A DNA stretch of 64,000 bases. It comes from Rhizobium binae. Lineage in GTDB: Bacteria; Pseudomonadota; Alphaproteobacteria; Rhizobiales; Rhizobiaceae. Position numbers and translations under genes: made by a program. The notes under the pieces were generated by a model. It searched no databases and was not told where the DNA came from. It saw nothing but the letters and a program-made list of their open reading frames with translations. Position 1 is the first letter of the stretch, and every line of letters starts with the position of its first letter. The DNA is taken from contig NZ_CP071604.1 in NCBI RefSeq assembly GCF_017357225.1, positions 1,801,001 to 1,865,000 of the forward strand, written 5' to 3'. Shown here in pieces: positions 52,713 through 64,000 of this stretch.

Positions 52713-52746
52713 TGACTGTTGATTTGCGCTGAGAGTTGACCCGGGA
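52713..52746 (+). repeat. IS21 left terminal inverted repeat
   Basis: This 34-bp end repeat is matched exactly by the reverse complement of 55181-55214. A second related copy (GATTTGCACTGAGAAGTGAC) starts at 52745, giving the tandem end structure of the family. Confidence 0.85.
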
Positions 52747-52771
52747 TTTGCACTGAGAAGTGACCCGCCTT

Positions 52772-53584
52772 TTAGGTATCGTTCGTGTCGGTCTTGGTGG
52801 TCAAGCTCTTGCGTTTCTCCTTTGCCGTTTTGGGTTCATGTGCGGAACTGTTTTTGAAGCGGAAGCTGTCATTGCCAGTTTCCAGGATATGGCAATGATG
52901 GGTGAGCCGGTCGAGCAGCGCGGTTGTCATCTTTGCATCGCCGAACACGCTGGCCCATTCGCTGAAGCTGAGATTGGTCGTGATGATAACGCTGGTGCGC
53001 TCATAAAGCTTGCTCAGCAGATGGAAGAGCAGCGCGCCACCTGAAGCGCTGAACGGCAGGTATCCCAGCTCGTCGAGGATCACGAGATCGGAGTGAACGA
53101 GGCGATTGGCGATCTGCCCGGAGCGACCTTGTGCCTTTTCCTGTTCCAGTGCGTTGACCAGTTCGACGGTCGAGAAGAACCGAACCCGCTTGTGGTGATG
53201 CTCGATGGCCTGGACACCGATCGCCGTGGCAATGTGCGTCTTGCCCGTGCCGGGGCCGCCAACCAGGACAATGTTGTTGGCGTCATCGAGGAATTCGCAG
53301 CGGTGGAGCTGTTGCACTAGCGCCTCGTTGATCTCGCTGCTGGCGAAGTCGAAGCCGTTCAGATCGCGGTATGCAGGAAAGCGTGCGATCTTGAGCTGGT
53401 AGGCCGTCGATCGCACCTCTCGTTCAGCCGTTTCCGCTTTCAGAAGCTGTGACAGGATCGGAATGGCAGCTTCAAACGCCGGCGCTCCCTGTTCTGTCAG
53501 CTCTCCGACGGCTTGAGCCATGCCGTGCATCTTCAATTGCCGTAGCATGATGACAATGGCACCGCTTGCTGGGTTATGACGCAT
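52772..53584 (-). CDS. istB: IS21 helper ATPase IstB
   Basis: This 270-aa AAA+ ATPase of the DnaC/IstB family has Walker [12 protein letters not shown] and Walker [13 protein letters not shown], and it assists the IstA transposase. It starts inside the end of istA (11-bp overlap), the usual translational coupling of IS21. The protein is full length, with a basic C-terminal tail. Confidence 0.95.
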
Positions 53585-55100
53585 GACGAACCTCCGTCTT
53601 TCTCAAGGTGTCGTAGCGTTCGACATTGGCCTTAGGCTCATTGGTGAGCACCAGTGCCTGGGGTGCGTCGAGCGTCGGCGGCGTGAAGGATTTGCCATCG
53701 ACAAGGCGATGCAGCAGATTCAACACGTGAGTCTTGGTCGGAACCCCGGACTTCAGCGCCATGTCGACGGCCGACAGGACTGCTTGCTCATCGTGCTGAA
53801 GAACAAGCGCCAGAATATCGACCATCTCCCTGTCTCCACCCGGCTTCTTGAGCAGGTATTGCTGCAGGTTCTTGAATGCGTCCGGTAGCTCGGCGAACGG
53901 AGCACCATTGCGAAGAGCGCCGGGTTTGCGCTGTACGACAGCCAGATAGTGCCGCCAGTCGTAGATGGTCTGTCCCGGGCGGTCATGGGAACGATCGATG
54001 ACGCGGTGATGCTCGCAGACGATCTGACCTTCCGCTGCTATAACGACACGATCCGGATAGACCCGAAGGCTTACCGGCCGATTAGCGAAAGAGGCCGGGA
54101 CGCTGTAGCGGTTGCGCTCAAGATGCACGAGGCAGGTCGGCGTGACACGCTTTGTGTATTCGACAAAGCCATCGAACGGCCTGGAAACAGGCATGAGAGC
54201 CAGAGCCTCCTCAGCCCAGATGTCGGCAATGGTGCCGCGTACCTGACCATGTGGTGTCTTTGCCCAGAACTCCTTGCACCGAAGCTCAAGCCAATCATTC
54301 AAGGCTTCCAATGATGGAAAGCGCGGGATCGGTTGAAAGAAGCGATGACGCGCATCCTGAACGTTCTTCTCGACTTGCCCCTTCTCCCAACCTGAAGCCG
54401 GATTGCAAAACTCGGGCTCGAACAGGTAGTGGCTGGCCATCGCCATGAAGCGGACATTGACGTCACGCTCTTTTCCACGGCCAACCTTGTCGATCGCTGT
54501 GCGCATGTTGTCGTAGATGCCACGGCCAGGAATTCCACCGAAGACGCGGAACGCATGATTGTGCGCATCGAACAGCATCTCGTGGGTTTGCAGCAGATAG
54601 GCCCGGACAATAAAGGCACGGCTGTAGCTCAGCTTTGTATGTGCCACCTGCAGCTTGGTGCGTTCATTGCCAATGATGGCCCAATCCTCAGACCAGTCGA
54701 ACTGGAACGCCTCACCCGGTTCAAATGCCAGGGGGACAAACGTGCCACGTCCTGTCGTCTGGAGTTCTCTCTGTCGGTCCGATTTCCATTCTCGAGCAAA
54801 GGCTGCAACGCGGCAGTAGGAACCATTATAGCCGAGGCTCACCAGATCAGAATGCAATTGCTTCATTGTCCGCTTCTGCTTGCGGCTCTTTTTCGATTCA
54901 GTCTTCAGCCACGCTGATAGCCGATCCGCGAATGGATCAAGCTTGCTCGGCCGCTCCGGGACATTGAACTTGGGTTCAACGCCGCCGGCACGCAGATATT
55001 TGCGGATGGTATTCCGGGATAAGCCCGTCCTGCGGCATATCTCCCGGATCGATAGCTGATCCCGAAAATGCCAGCGCCGGATTACGCTCAGTAACGCCAT
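53574..55100 (-). CDS. istA: IS21 transposase IstA
   Basis: This 508-aa transposase has an N-terminal HTH ([21 protein letters not shown]), a DDE integrase core ([13 protein letters not shown] with the first Asp, [11 protein letters not shown] with the second, and the Glu in [13 protein letters not shown]) and a C-terminal Mu-like beta region. All three catalytic residues are present, so the element may be active. A GTG at 55109 is an alternative start. Confidence 0.94.
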
Positions 55101-55180
55101 GTCGATCACTCCAGAGCCCCCGCTGAAACCACAGGGGATGATTGAAACATGGGTCAATTCTCAGTGATATTTTCCCGCAG

Positions 55181-55214
55181 TCCCGGGTCAACTCTCAGCG
55201 CAAATCAACAGTCA
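55181..55214 (-). repeat. IS21 right terminal inverted repeat
   Basis: This is the perfect inverted partner of the left end. A weaker inner copy lies at 55151-55170. The flank beyond 55214 (ATGAAACGG) does not repeat the flank before 52713. Confidence 0.85.
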
Positions 55215-55372: not shown

Positions 55373-56851
55373 CTAGCCTGCGCTGACAGCCTTCTTCAGA
55401 AAGGCAAACATTTCCGGGCCGTGTGGTGCACTTTCATAGCCCGGCCCGGGACCGAACTCGTCGTCCTCCTCGTCGGGCAGAGGCTTCAGATACAGGTCGA
55501 AGAATTCCTCGCCCGAGTAGCCGATCCATTCGGCATCCTCGAGAAGCATTTCCGCTCTTCCCGGATCAGAGTCTACCAAGGCGATTGCCTTCTGCCGGAT
55601 CGACGGCATCCCGGAAAAATGGAACTTAACTAAGGATTGGGAGCGCGGTCTACCTGCTCTGCCCGCTTCGCAAAGATTGAGTACCAGTCGAAATGCCGTT
55701 TCCTGGTCGAGTGAGCGCCCAATGATCCGCTCGTGGCCAGGGTTCCATCTTTCGAATGCAGCCGATGCGAACGTCTCAGCCCGATCGTGGTCGTAAGTTG
55801 CGGAGACCAACATCGATTTGGCCCGCCCCAGATGCGGATGGTCCGCGCCGAGCGCTCTCAAGAATGCCTCGGTTGCCAGCATCTTTCGAATGCAGGCGTC
55901 GAGCGTTAACCGAAGCCTGCCCGTTCCGTCGTTCAGCACCCAGTAGAAGATCTCTCGGAGAGCGAACTCGCGTTCCTCGTCGTCCAGCGAGAACTCGTTG
56001 ATTATTGCGGCGAGGGCGGCATCGACTGAGTCATTGGATTTCTGACTGTGCCGACCCAGTATCGCCGGATCCTGCGCGATGATCTCAATCAACCACGAGC
56101 TTGATGGCGGTAAGGTCCGCCGTTCCAGCAGGGTCAGTGACAGGTATTTCTGTAGCTGACTGTTCTGCTCGTTAGCCACCCAGCGCAGGAAGATCTCGGC
56201 ATTGCGCTTGAAGCGAGGGCTGCCGAACTCGTGGTTTGCAACGATGGCATTTATCACTTCCCAATGGGCGGCCGGGTCGCAGAGACTTAGCTCGTCACGC
56301 GTCGTATGCTCGTGCCCATAGGGCAGCGCTGCCGGGTACATGTCGACGTTGGTCATCTTGTGAAGGATTTCCGCGAGACCGTGCATTGCACTGATGAACC
56401 TGACCGAAAGGATTCGAGCGTGACCGTTCGCGATCATCCGTCGGGCTTCGTCTTCACCGATCATGCAGCCGGACGCATGCGCCGCTTGATTTCTTGCCTC
56501 GTATAGATGCTTGAGATAGCGCTGCTGCTCGATGTCGAGCTTTCCCCAGTTGTCTGTCAGATTGAGCACGTCGTTCTCGTAAGAGCCTTGGTGCTTGCGG
56601 ACCGATTCGAGCTTCTGCGCGAGAGTCCTGGCAGTGCCATCGAATTGGGCGAAATCTGCAGCCTTGTGCCGAATGTCATCGAAGACCGCACAAGCCATCA
56701 TCACAACCGAAGCGCGGAAGGCGCGGGCGTTGAAGCAGTTAACTGCTTCCGTGAAATAGGAGCGGGATTCCTCGTTGTGAACCTCAAGGAGCATCTTCTC
56801 GAGGTCGAACGGGATGAAGTTGTCAGTGTCAGTGGGGATGTGTGGTTGCAT
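55373..56851 (-). CDS. HEPN-like protein with Rx4H motif
   Basis: This 492-aa soluble protein has a helical N-terminal domain (about residues 20-180) of DUF4145/HEPN type. The HEPN nuclease motif R-x4-H is at Arg120 and His125 in YEARNQAAHASG. A long helical-repeat-like region (about 200-440) and an acidic tail (PLPDEEDDEFGPGPGYE) follow. HEPN domains are RNases in toxin-antitoxin and defence systems; here that role is inference from the motif and the accessory setting. ATG 56851 has AGGCAGG upstream. It converges on the IS21 end. Confidence 0.6.
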   Translation of the reverse strand: MQPHIPTDTDNFIPFDLEKMLLEVHNEESRSYFTEAVNCFNARAFRASVVMMACAVFDDIRHKAADFAQFDGTARTLAQKLESVRKHQGSYENDVLNLTDNWGKLDIEQQRYLKHLYEARNQAAHASGCMIGEDEARRMIANGHARILSVRFISAMHGLAEILHKMTNVDMYPAALPYGHEHTTRDELSLCDPAAHWEVINAIVANHEFGSPRFKRNAEIFLRWVANEQNSQLQKYLSLTLLERRTLPPSSSWLIEIIAQDPAILGRHSQKSNDSVDAALAAIINEFSLDDEEREFALREIFYWVLNDGTGRLRLTLDACIRKMLATEAFLRALGADHPHLGRAKSMLVSATYDHDRAETFASAAFERWNPGHERIIGRSLDQETAFRLVLNLCEAGRAGRPRSQSLVKFHFSGMPSIRQKAIALVDSDPGRAEMLLEDAEWIGYSGEEFFDLYLKPLPDEEDDEFGPGPGYESAPHGPEMFAFLKKAVSAG

Positions 56852-57056
56852 GATGACCTGCCTTTCTGCCACACGTGGTAGCCCGGCTGGCATGAATCTT
56901 GGCTTAGCGAGTTCGGTTAAAAGGTTACAAAGATTCAGACTTCCCCAACGTCATCTCCGGCGGACTTCATACGAATTCGAACACGAGACGGCGACCTGAG
57001 GACTGGCGTTCGCGCTCCCGCTGAATTAGGCACCATCGACGAACAAGGAGGGAAGC

Positions 57057-60030: not shown

Positions 60031-60660
60031 ATGGCGCCATTCAAATATCAGTCCCGCGCGCGTGAGTTCAACGAGGCCTACACGAAGCAGGTAGCGGACG
60101 ATCTCGAGCGCGTTCGGGAGGGCATGATTGCACCACGCAACATGCAACGCTTTTCACACGGGCAAAGGTGGCGAACAAAGCCTGTCGTGCTTGGTGATGA
60201 GACGGGGGAGCTCACCGTGCATTCCTTCGGTATCGAGTCGCCTTTCGAGGACATAGTCAGCCACGACTTAGTGCGATTCGTCCTTGCACGGCGAAAGCTG
60301 GCATCGGGCCTGTCAGATGAACTCGCCAGAACGCTTTACCAGGCGATCAGTCAATCCACTGAAAGGTCCGGAAACATTGCTACGGCAACGCCGGATCAAG
60401 CGCCCGTCGAATCTTATCTGGACGCCATGGAGAAGATCGAGTTCGCGATCGAGGAGAGCGGGGAGGTCAGCCTGCCTACCACGTACATGGATCCTCAAAG
60501 ATGGGCGGAAATAGTAGCGCAGCTTAACGATCCGAGTTCGGAACACCACGCGAGGTGGGAGCGTATCAAGGCCGAAAAGAGCCTTCGCGCACGACAGCGG
60601 GAGAGCGAGCGCCTGGCCAAGTTTCCGGCGGCTTGGGCCGAGGAATACATATGCGAATAG
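60031..60660 (+). CDS. Unknown 209-aa protein coupled to the caspase-like gene
   Basis: This soluble, mostly helical protein has no motif that I recognise. Its C-terminal third is highly charged (RWERIKAEKSLRARQRESER). ATG 60031 has GAGACGG upstream. The stop overlaps the caspase gene by 10 bp, so both proteins are made from one message and probably act together, for example as sensor, adaptor or inhibitor of the protease. Confidence 0.6.
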   Translation: MAPFKYQSRAREFNEAYTKQVADDLERVREGMIAPRNMQRFSHGQRWRTKPVVLGDETGELTVHSFGIESPFEDIVSHDLVRFVLARRKLASGLSDELARTLYQAISQSTERSGNIATATPDQAPVESYLDAMEKIEFAIEESGEVSLPTTYMDPQRWAEIVAQLNDPSSEHHARWERIKAEKSLRARQRESERLAKFPAAWAEEYICE

Positions 60661-62588
60661 TCATAGCGGTTGGCTGCGACACATATGAGAAGCCTCCACT
60701 GGATGCGCTTTCCGGGGCGGAGAATGATGCCAAAGCAGTGTTCGATCATCTTGTCACAGACGGCTTTGGTGATAGCAGCGCGAAGGATTCAAGGCTTCTT
60801 CTGTCACCATCGATGGACGATGTGCGATCAGCCGTCGCAGCCATTCTGTTTTCGGGCAAACCCATCGAGGAGCTGACGTTCTTCTTTGCCGGGCACGGCG
60901 GGGTCAAGGACGGCACCTATTTTCTCTGCCTGAGGGATACCGACGTCGACCGGATGTCCGTAAACGCGCTCTCAATGACGCAGCTGTTTGCATGGATCAC
61001 TGAGGCGAAAATCGGACACACCAACATTATCATCGACGCATGCCAATCCGGCGGCGTTGTCCATGACATCGGGGTTCTACTTAACCCCAGCGTCATAGGC
61101 AAGACCGGGTCGATGGCAGTATCGATCCTCGCAGCTTCGAGTTCTAACGAGGCGGCTGGCGAGTCGGACGGAGCTGGCCATTGTACGAGCGCGCTGATGA
61201 GCTGCTTGAAGGGGACAACGATCGTACAGACGACGCGCCCGTCACTTGACCTGGTCGAGGTGGGACAGGTGGTTTCGCGAGCCATGCAGGGCAAGCAGCA
61301 GACGCCAGTGTGTTGGGGAATAAATCTTTTCGGCGTATCCCGCCTCGCTAAGAACCCGAGGTTTTCCGGAGACATCAACGCGATACCCGAGACTTTTCCA
61401 GGTTTCGCGGCCGATGCTGCTGGCAACGAACACATCCGTGCCGCGTCAGACGCGATCTGGGCCCAATATCTCGCTTTATCGAACGAGTTCGATGCGGAAC
61501 GCTTCCTCGATGTCATCCAGCCCGTGTGCCGAAGTTTGCATGATGAACCCGCTACGGCAGCAGCCTTCATCATGGGGTTGTCGACGACATTCGGAGTGCG
61601 AGCGGAGACGTTGGACGACCCATTCGAAATCGGCCGTGTCCACGCGGCATGCGCCGTAGCGTTGCTTCCTCTGGCGGAGTCGAACCCACTCTGTGGAAGC
61701 GCGATCCAGCAGTTGGTATCGAGGGTCGTGGATGCGGTCGTCCGAGGCGTGGAAAATCTCGCAGCCGAACTCGACCGCGAGAGCTATCATCTGCTGATAT
61801 CAGGTGCCGGTGCCGCGGACTATTATTTCCTGCCGCTGAGAGTCATGAGTATTCTCGGCTGGATTGGTGCTGCGGCCCAGTTGGCAGGCGTCGCGGGTCA
61901 AGCTGTTGCTGAGACGATGGCTCCGGCTCGTGATCTCGTGCGCGTGATTTGCTCGCACTACTGCAACTCGATTGTTCCTGTGTCGGATGAGATTGCCCCG
62001 TTCTACGTCGCTTTCGCCTCGGCAGCTGAAGCCCTCGGATGCGGTGACGAGTTGGAGACCGTTTCTTGTCTTTTGCTCAGGAAGCTTCATGACCGGGGCG
62101 GCTACCTCGCAGCACCCGGATTGAACGGCGAGGAAGCCTTCCGGTTCCTGAATGCTTCCGCCGAGGGGCGATACGAAGATTGCCGCAAGCTCATCGCGAA
62201 TCCCACGGGTCTTCTGCCAGCAGTACTGCTCGTGTTGAAGCAGATCGGACTCTCCGGTCAGGCGGAAGGTGCAATGCGAGGATTCGACCATACGAATATC
62301 AACTTTTTTATCCCCGATAATTACTGCGATTTCGGAGGTCGGGTGATCGAGGATGGCACCAATTTCACCCTGAACATCGGCCACACGATCTTCACGATCG
62401 ACGATGTCTCCATGGAGTGGGGGACGATCGCCGATGGCCTACGATCCAACACTGCCCTGGCGACAACCTCCGTCAGGGGCGCTTGTTTACTGGCGTCTCT
62501 TCTTCGACCAGATCGGATCCCATGGTTCCTGATCGCCGAGCACCAGACAGCAGAGCCAGCCAGCACTAACGACACGGTTGAGGCATAG
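60651..62588 (+). CDS. Caspase-like (peptidase C14) protease with long C-terminal extension
   Basis: This 645-aa protein has an N-terminal caspase fold (about residues 1-230). It starts RIVIAVGCDTYEKPPLDALSGAENDA, the catalytic His82 is in FFFAGHGG and Cys131 in IIIDACQSGG. Bacterial enzymes of this type often cut after arginine or lysine. The C-terminal 400 residues are helical and unknown and may sense a signal. It follows and overlaps the 209-aa gene. Two small proteins with arginine-rich ends follow, which makes them candidate substrates. The start at ATG 60651 is preferred over 60555. Confidence 0.85.
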   Translation: MRIVIAVGCDTYEKPPLDALSGAENDAKAVFDHLVTDGFGDSSAKDSRLLLSPSMDDVRSAVAAILFSGKPIEELTFFFAGHGGVKDGTYFLCLRDTDVDRMSVNALSMTQLFAWITEAKIGHTNIIIDACQSGGVVHDIGVLLNPSVIGKTGSMAVSILAASSSNEAAGESDGAGHCTSALMSCLKGTTIVQTTRPSLDLVEVGQVVSRAMQGKQQTPVCWGINLFGVSRLAKNPRFSGDINAIPETFPGFAADAAGNEHIRAASDAIWAQYLALSNEFDAERFLDVIQPVCRSLHDEPATAAAFIMGLSTTFGVRAETLDDPFEIGRVHAACAVALLPLAESNPLCGSAIQQLVSRVVDAVVRGVENLAAELDRESYHLLISGAGAADYYFLPLRVMSILGWIGAAAQLAGVAGQAVAETMAPARDLVRVICSHYCNSIVPVSDEIAPFYVAFASAAEALGCGDELETVSCLLLRKLHDRGGYLAAPGLNGEEAFRFLNASAEGRYEDCRKLIANPTGLLPAVLLVLKQIGLSGQAEGAMRGFDHTNINFFIPDNYCDFGGRVIEDGTNFTLNIGHTIFTIDDVSMEWGTIADGLRSNTALATTSVRGACLLASLLRPDRIPWFLIAEHQTAEPASTNDTVEA

Positions 62589-62701
62589 TGAACCGAAGTT
62601 GGGGGAAACGAAGATGGATCCTTGCGACGCAGCCGCAGCCTACCTACTTTCTCTATGAGATGTCTAAGCCTCGCCTCACCACATGCTCGAATCGAGGGTG
62701 A
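62588..62701 (+). CDS. Candidate 37-aa ORF overlapping the caspase stop
   Basis: A GTG overlapping the last base of the caspase stop (TAGTG) opens a 37-codon frame rich in Arg, Pro and Trp, with GAGG just upstream. It would be translationally coupled. Nothing else supports it. Another 14-codon frame (ATG 62614, with GGGGGAAA upstream) lies inside in a different frame. Confidence 0.25.
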   Translation: MNRSWGKRRWILATQPQPTYFLYEMSKPRLTTCSNRG

Positions 62702-62706
62702 CTACC

Positions 62707-62853
62707 ATGACGGAAAGAGATAGCAGCCAAGGAAGCAGAAGCGTGACGCCACGCACGACCACTCCGGCACAGCCGGATAGGTCACCGGGCGAAGTGTCGT
62801 CTAATCCGGTGACTACAGGCGACGTTACGCCGCCCTCGCTGCCAAGACGCTAG
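62707..62853 (+). CDS. Small Thr/Pro-rich protein 1 of a tandem pair
   Basis: This 48-aa disordered-looking protein is too short for most gene finders. It starts MTERDSSQGSRSVTPRTTTP and ends TPPSLPRR, with GAGGGTGAC before ATG 62707. It shares with the next small protein the blocks (S/A)-x-TPRTTT, QP, NP(V/L)TTG-like and PPxxPRR at the end. It lies 118 bp after the caspase-like gene on the same strand. The conserved arginines are suitable cut sites for a caspase-like protease. Confidence 0.6.
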   Translation: MTERDSSQGSRSVTPRTTTPAQPDRSPGEVSSNPVTTGDVTPPSLPRR

Positions 62854-62885
62854 GCGATTGATAACGACCATCGAAGGGAAGACAC

Positions 62886-63041
62886 ATGTCCGGCAATGGA
62901 AGCGATTACAGCCAGAAGAGCGCCACACCTAGAACAACAACGGTTCAGCCTCAGACTACCAGTGGTCATGGCGGGCAGCAGGGCTCCGTCCAACCACTGA
63001 CGACCGGATCGGGTGATCGGCCACCACCGCCGCGGCGCTGA
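62886..63041 (+). CDS. Small Thr/Pro-rich protein 2 of a tandem pair
   Basis: This 51-aa protein starts MSGNGSDYSQKSATPRTTTV and ends GDRPPPPRR. It is related to the previous one in block order and has its own ribosome site (GAAGGGAAG) before ATG 62886. Gly/Gln-rich spacing between the blocks differs, so this is a diverged duplicate rather than a copy error. The stop abuts the convergent gene at 63042. Confidence 0.6.
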   Translation: MSGNGSDYSQKSATPRTTTVQPQTTSGHGGQQGSVQPLTTGSGDRPPPPRR

Positions 63042-63689
63042 TCATTTTCTCCAACCAACATCAATCTGCTTGATTTCCGACCGCGGAATGTAAGTGATGG
63101 TGGTGTCGCCCGCCGCGTTTACTTGATCGAATTCACGTCTCTCGTCGCCTTCGTATACAGCCGTCACATACATGGCGATACCGTCGTCATTCAGGATGAT
63201 CGGTTTGGTCGGGATTCCGGCCTGTTCCGGCAATGCCAGCAAACTTTCGACGATCTTACCGTTGGCAAGGTGAACTTGAACGAAGCTCCACCTCGTATCG
63301 GCTGACATTACTGATCTGAACGCCGATGTCTCGTGATCGTCGTGATAGATCTTCAGCTTCGACATTGCGGCCTTGACCCACTTCTCGAGATACTTGCGCC
63401 ACAAGAGCGCAAAGCCGACCGATCCGATGATGGCGAGCACGCTGATGATTGCGACGCTCTTGTAGTCCGACTCCACAACGGTGGTCGGCGCCCAGTAGCC
63501 GAGCTTCATCACCAGCCGCGCCACTACGTACGAGAACACCCGTCCGAGCGTTCCGAAGACCAGAACCTGCAAAAGGAAGTCTTCAGTCTTATGCTCGACC
63601 TTCTTGGTGGCCGTAGTCAGCTTGTAGCCGAGATAACCCGCCACGAGGACGATCTGGATTTCGAAGGGCAGTTTCAGGAGCTCATTCAT
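63042..63689 (-). CDS. Membrane protein with soluble C-terminal domain
   Basis: This 215-aa protein has hydrophobic segments at about 8-22, 40-62 and 76-95, then a soluble domain (about 110-215) with DTRWSFVQVHLANGKIVESL and TTITYIPRSEIKQIDVGW, which look like a small beta fold. It resembles DUF6338-like membrane proteins, without certainty. It starts 8 bp after the end of the gene at 63698, so the two are co-transcribed and face the caspase operon. Confidence 0.5.
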   Translation of the reverse strand: MNELLKLPFEIQIVLVAGYLGYKLTTATKKVEHKTEDFLLQVLVFGTLGRVFSYVVARLVMKLGYWAPTTVVESDYKSVAIISVLAIIGSVGFALLWRKYLEKWVKAAMSKLKIYHDDHETSAFRSVMSADTRWSFVQVHLANGKIVESLLALPEQAGIPTKPIILNDDGIAMYVTAVYEGDERREFDQVNAAGDTTITYIPRSEIKQIDVGWRK

Positions 63690-63697
63690 CGGGTCAT

Positions 63698-64000
63698 CTA
63701 CGCCACGAACTGGGGAATGACGGGCAGGGGTGCAGCCGCCGCTTTCGATTTGCGCTCTTCCGCCGATCGGGCTGCCCCTCGCACTACTGCAACTTTTTCC
63801 TTGTCGTCGCCGAGGAGACGAAGAATGTCACCGTCGTCAGCAGTCACGATTTTTGCGGTATCGGCCAACCCGGCTTCGACCAGGGCACAATAGTCGCCGC
63901 GCGTAAGGGTCGCTCCCGCCTCACGGGCGAGATCAGCGGCGGCGCCTGGCACGCCATAGGTTAACCGCACAGCGAGCCTCTGGATGCGCTCCGCCAAGTC
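63698..64000 (-). CDS. C-terminal end of a larger protein, possibly a DEAD/DEAH helicase (partial)
   Basis: The frame is open to the window edge and ends at 63698. The visible 100 residues (AERIQRLAVRLTYGVPGAAAD, then RGDYCALVEAGLADTAKIV) form a helix-hairpin-helix-like block. This block is often found at the C-terminus of DEAD/DEAH helicases. The catalytic domains would lie beyond the window. The call is tentative. Confidence 0.4.
   Translation of the reverse strand, partial: DLAERIQRLAVRLTYGVPGAAADLAREAGATLTRGDYCALVEAGLADTAKIVTADDGDILRLLGDDKEKVAVVRGAARSAEERKSKAAAAPLPVIPQFVA

Follow-up and report, generated by a model that had tools for sequence, protein, structure and literature searches.

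A caspase gene and its conserved upstream partner in Rhizobium binae, a possible two-gene immune-type module

Animal caspases run cell death, and caspases of bacteria are being linked to defence system by system. A bacterial relative, a caspase-fold protein of 645 amino acids (aa), is encoded near the end of a 64,000-nucleotide stretch of Rhizobium binae DNA (NZ_CP071604.1, positions 1,801,001 to 1,865,000; hereafter the window, in whose numbering positions are given), directly after the gene for a 209-aa protein (hereafter the partner). What do these two genes do together, and which of their neighbours belong with them? The original prediction placed the pair in one conflict system with two small proteins, a membrane protein and a possible helicase. 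Our analysis favours a smaller unit. With a probability of roughly 0.55, as judged from sequence comparison and structure models, the pair is a two-gene, caspase-effector immune-type module of the anti-phage type, in which the downstream gene product would be an active caspase-fold cysteine protease with a long helical platform resembling tetratricopeptide repeats (TPR). The features of the pair are as follows:

60031..60660, plus strand: partner gene, 209 aa, whose relatives adjoin the caspase gene upstream in 39 of 40 family loci
60157..60159, plus strand: codon of His43 in the partner, invariant across all 31 partners aligned (alignment A2)
60610..60624, plus strand: C-terminal motif of the partner, R-x-x-[KR]-[FY], residues 194-198, each conserved position kept in 31 of 31
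60651..62588, plus strand: caspase gene, 645 aa, with the caspase domain at about 1-235 and a helical C-terminal part at about 256-632
60894..60896, plus strand: codon of catalytic His82, kept in 90 of 90 relatives
61035..61037, plus strand: codon of Asp129 in the D-A-C motif, kept in 90 of 90 relatives
61041..61043, plus strand: codon of catalytic Cys131, kept in 90 of 90 relatives

The two open reading frames (ORFs) share 10 nt, confirming the overlap originally described, and the 645-aa protein has the intact His82 and Cys131 that had been read in it. It passes the cut-off of Pfam Peptidase_C14 (30.6 bits, cut-off 21.4, residues 2-220), and a C14 match at E up to 1 was obtained for 17 of the 28 caspase family members scanned singly. 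The search for relatives returned at least 89 proteins; scoring was confined to the 7996 candidates that shared most words, and the list is therefore incomplete. His82, Asp129 and Cys131 are invariant in all 90 caspase proteins; the catalytic pair is thus not lost from most relatives, but kept throughout. Asp129, next to the catalytic Cys, we take to mark the basic-P1 type, a protease cutting after Arg or Lys. The caspase fold was confirmed for the 645-aa protein; MALT1 structures align to residues 1 to about 240 of its model only, the C-terminal part is predicted to be almost all helical, and kinesin light chain TPR matches were found there (E 0.01-0.04). Fold, dyad and D-x-C motif are common to this protein and to Peptidase family C14 (metacaspase, paracaspase, orthocaspase); in contrast to other C14 members, its C-terminal part forms a family of its own and its upstream partner is obligate. 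Two family caspases (P0009 and P0010) were seen in Rhizobium leguminosarum on contigs of equal length, probably two copies on one chromosome.

The genome scan gave 42 loci, 40 of them with this caspase (partial in three) and two with weak caspase-domain matches and without the partner (L074, L075). Of the 40, 39 have a partner relative as the next gene upstream of the caspase: 36 on first reading, and the three loci with a partial caspase (L067, L070, L073), which stood outside the first counts and were all found to have it in a later check. At the fortieth locus (L047) the contig ends 134 bp upstream of the caspase. In L054 the partner gene is spread over two frames, and the alignments do not include it. 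In 36 pairs the two genes are separated by up to 19 nt or overlap by up to 29 nt, a partner profile found exactly one match per genome in each of the 29 genomes searched whole, and the pairwise distances of partner and caspase correlate with r 0.93 (reached by 0 of 2000 permutations, maximum 0.27). These figures bear out the proposed linkage of the 209-aa protein to the caspase and support the view that the two form one conserved unit; the refuting case, caspase homologues without this neighbour, did not arise for the pair. ORF clustering over the 40 loci recovered the caspase in all 40 and the partner in 35 at the thresholds applied, and it showed no third conserved gene, every other cluster being confined to three loci at most; the clustering took ORFs of at least 80 aa and joined them at 40% of the longer protein, so that small proteins are invisible to it.

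The partner can be traced across alpha-, beta- and gammaproteobacteria. Within the order, a caspase-domain match of some kind occurs in 47 of 297 genomes and a full-length caspase relative in three, the window's own included, which is a patchy distribution. A plasmid of Sulfitobacter carries the pair too, as does a contig bearing the label Bacteriophage sp. (MT835554.1, L078); the partner of the latter has exactly the sequence of the partner in a genome of Pseudomonas frederiksbergensis (L045), which makes the phage label doubtful and possibly wrong. In Rugamonas and Massilia a different, second caspase gene directly follows the pair (L050:9986-11122, L060:10112-11245).

The defence-type setting that had been proposed was found again in relatives. 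In the flanks of 20 loci (20 of 29 genomes), 122 ORFs matched 219 PADLOC models at 1e-10, compared with eight models, none of them GajA or GajB, for 133 ORFs of control stretches from the same contigs. The test comprised 122 of 138 flank and 133 of 147 control ORFs, those above 630 aa (16 flank, 13 control) and one further control ORF having been dropped for size limits. Among the 25 of the 219 models listed, GajB models matched up to six flank ORFs and GajA models up to four. Known defence genes, mostly Gabija, are more frequent in the flanks of the pair than in the control stretches. Several points weigh against the immune reading or soften its support. The count of 219 is swollen by redundant Gabija models; the Gabija-like pairs seen in the clustering lie in Pseudomonas loci or on the phage-labelled contig, and the six loci concerned are not independent because they are Pseudomonas or share Pseudomonas DNA; mad3 matches six control ORFs and four flank ORFs; and the distance correlation drops to 0.52 among the 545 most distant pairs.

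The partner itself has no match above cut-off in curated families (Pfam, NCBIfam, PADLOC and PHROGs among the libraries searched). None of 31 partners has a membrane helix-like stretch, the top 19-residue hydropathy being 1.09, against 2.47 for the window's membrane protein on the same simple scale, which is not a trained predictor. His43, Pro149, Glu191 and Arg194 are invariant in all 31 (alignment A2), and the R-x-x-[KR]-[FY] motif is a candidate docking or cleavage site. The model of the partner (pLDDT, the predicted local distance difference test, 81.5; pTM, the predicted template modelling score, 0.64) is mostly helical: a helix at the N-terminus is followed by an extended stretch, a long helix at 81-113 and a helix at the C-terminus. 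For the binding of the two products, the direction of control, the trigger, the substrates and the outcome we infer the following course. The product of the upstream gene would be soluble and dedicated to regulation: bound to the helical platform, it would keep the protease inactive. Some phage product, or a change caused by the phage, might act on this regulator, upon which the protease would be released or brought together; once free, it could cut host proteins, and the cell would stop growing or die before phage is made. The partner is widely traceable and lies outside curated families, and two genes suffice for a clean test.

It is distinctly less probable that the partner is the substrate of the caspase, either a pro-effector activated or an inhibitor destroyed by cleavage at the basic C-terminal motif. 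The conservation of that motif in all 31 partners would fit this explanation, and the principle is seen in trypsin-nuclease pairs and in Canu, whose caspase activates the CanC nuclease by cleavage (PMC12799240); but no match of the partner to nucleases or to any other family of enzymes was found, its His43, Pro149 and Glu191 do not read as an active site, and docking would account for the motif equally well. Canu (CanABC) resembles the present pair in that a caspase with a MALT1-like fold is encoded beside a partner protein, and in its defence setting (PMC12799240). Canu has, downstream, a gene for a gated nuclease of metallo-beta-lactamase fold, CanC, whereas no conserved downstream gene, and therefore no CanC-type nuclease, occurs in our 40 loci; its caspase is followed by an immunoglobulin-like fold, whereas the C-terminal part is here modelled as helical (PMC12799240).

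A tentative and equally doubtful proposal concerns where the regulator came from and what it senses. The partner may descend from a virus shell protein, in the form of a domesticated, shortened HK97-fold phage capsid protein acting as bait; the capsid protein of a new phage would co-assemble with it, or disturb the assembly of the partner, and the caspase would be switched on and the cell killed or arrested. Weak signals from sequences and models converge on this origin, none of them past an accepted threshold. Phage_capsid_4 (PF25209) matches four of 31 partners weakly (best E 8.9e-4, 20.0 bits against a cut-off of 27); the single Pfam scans covered 21 of the 31 and gave three of the four matches. 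The weak capsid matches are colinear, span partner residues of about 47-172 and lie below every cut-off. The T7 gp10 capsid fold matches residues 8-180 of the partner model weakly. Aligning the partner with the capsid profile by hhalign gave a score of 23.1 (P 0.023, probability 2.1%, 105 columns), with a maximum of 20.7 in 20 column shuffles. The top five hits of a local PF25209 profile among 31 partners, 388 background ORFs and 155 shuffles were partners, as were the top four of a larger PF25209 profile.

Other results count against a capsid origin. The A2 profile produced two unrelated matches at E up to 10 among PDB sequences; it did not separate capsids from background, and among 5.8 billion proteins it found eight. 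These were the protein of the window, P0094 and six more, and not one is Pfam-labelled or named as a capsid. No hhalign signal was obtained between the partner and the Mu gpT and PF05065 profiles, and hmmsearch with PF05065 gave a single match of 9.1 bits, equalled by a shuffle at 9.2. No shell protein of a capsid was among the matches that Foldseek listed from the PDB for the partner model (best E 2.4), and the partner's PHROGs matches were scattered, two being to major head protein families (E 0.043 and 0.09). Phage_capsid_4 and T7 gp10 proteins have about 262-345 aa and the partner about 209, therefore most of the C-terminal part of the capsid protein would be missing. If the partner is capsid-derived, the likeness would be to CapRel (PMC9712102) and staphylococcal Thoeris (PMC11312562), where a phage major capsid protein is the trigger; in both, the capsid protein comes from the phage, whereas here a capsid-like protein would be encoded next to the effector. 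In that case a caspase and a protein of viral shell origin would together form a guard-and-decoy immune pair. It would show directly that the shell protein of a virus can be put to use as bait in immunity, and would offer a simple way into the question of how phage capsids are recognised.

A role in the stress response or regulation of the host, exercised by proteolysis and unrelated to phages, seems unlikely: ordinary metabolic genes stand in many flanks, as such a function would allow, but the patchy occurrence of the pair, its presence on plasmids and in mobile contexts and the excess of defence models in the flanks speak for something else.

We consider it quite unlikely that the pair belongs, as a divergent branch, to the two-gene EACC1-caspase conflict system (Kaur et al. 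2020, PMC7159879). That system also has a small 5' gene and a 3' gene for an N-terminal caspase with a C-terminal part, and the NCBIfam model caspase_w_EACC1 matches our caspase domain at 3e-19; but the match reaches 69.4 bits against a cut-off of 140, no fitting Pfam or NCBIfam match exists for the partner, and EACC1 is described with a transmembrane helix, unlike the 31 partners, in which no stretch exceeds the hydropathy given above (PMC7159879). The C-terminal part is moreover a changing set in EACC1-caspase systems and one constant family here (PMC7159879). The pair is nearest to EACC1-caspase in gene order (PMC7159879) and to Canu in logic (PMC12799240), and lacks the defining features of either when these are compared. 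No published description of the pair was found in the literature covered, which leaves most subscription journals outside. Beyond the pair, the end of the window holds:

62707-62853, plus strand: small ORF, 48 aa, Thr/Pro-rich, ending PRR, with a purine-rich stretch before the start
62886-63041, plus strand: small ORF, 51 aa, Thr/Pro-rich, ending PRR, with a purine-rich stretch before the start
63042-63689, minus strand: membrane protein, 215 aa, its gene starting 8 nt beyond the end of the gene running off the window and coupled to it
63698-64000 of the window (L080:6698-9841), minus strand: caspase and superfamily 2 (SF2) helicase fusion, 1047 aa, complete beyond 64000

One system of partner, caspase, both small proteins, membrane protein and helicase, as originally predicted, is highly improbable and was rejected: the parts adjoin in a single genome and two caspases face each other, but no third gene is conserved, the outer parts do not recur near 44 family loci, and the caspase-helicase occurs on 12 plasmids, accompanied by the membrane neighbour on one of two compared (71%).

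The caspase does have homologues that lack the small proteins, membrane protein and helicase nearby. By tblastn over the 44 loci, nothing below E 0.28 was found for the small and membrane proteins, and the caspase-helicase gave one generic helicase match (L035, 27% identity); small ORFs were also sought by eye at 37 loci (ATG ORFs of at least 30 aa within 900 bp). The 51-aa protein has one doubtful match besides itself in the 297 genomes of the order, the 48-aa protein being outside that search. The description of the two as paralogous Arg-ended proteins held: their alignment scores 82, while none of 1000 shuffles exceeds 49, making them paralogues, and both end in PRR. They are local to this locus. 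Arg ends beside two caspases are suggestive and unexplained.

The possible helicase was real: the sequence beyond 64000 completes an SF2 helicase, itself fused to a second caspase (Peptidase_C14 19-243, DEAD 303-463, Helicase_C 592-672), so that two caspase genes of different kinds converge at this locus. The fusion occurs in two of the 297 genomes, the window's own included, and its 12 plasmid records come from Alphaproteobacteria, Bacteroidota and one Candidatus Manganitrophus; the gene tables of four of these plasmids show no partner-caspase pair within 4 kb of it. On a Rhizobium plasmid the helicase is 84% identical, and the 113-aa protein encoded after it shares 71% identity with the N-terminal half of the membrane protein; the gene that comes next on a plasmid of Rhodopseudomonas is unrelated to the membrane protein. 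The caspase-helicase is a separate mobile module. On plasmid NZ_CP133114.1 (L145:1-3092) two TIR-domain genes and another caspase gene stand beside it, presumably a Thoeris-like set.

Two further features lie upstream of the pair:

52713-55214: insertion element, a 527-aa transposase-like ORF between perfect inverted ends of 34 nt
55373-56893, minus strand: 506-aa protein, PADLOC PD-T7-3 match at E 1.7e-9, beside the insertion element

An insertion element, named as an IS21, had indeed been noted close by. Neighbours with a HEPN motif had been named as well; the 506-aa gene is present and its HEPN label is weak, the HEPN_Swt1 match (E 0.065) being below the cut-off. The 506-aa protein is a further possible defence gene.

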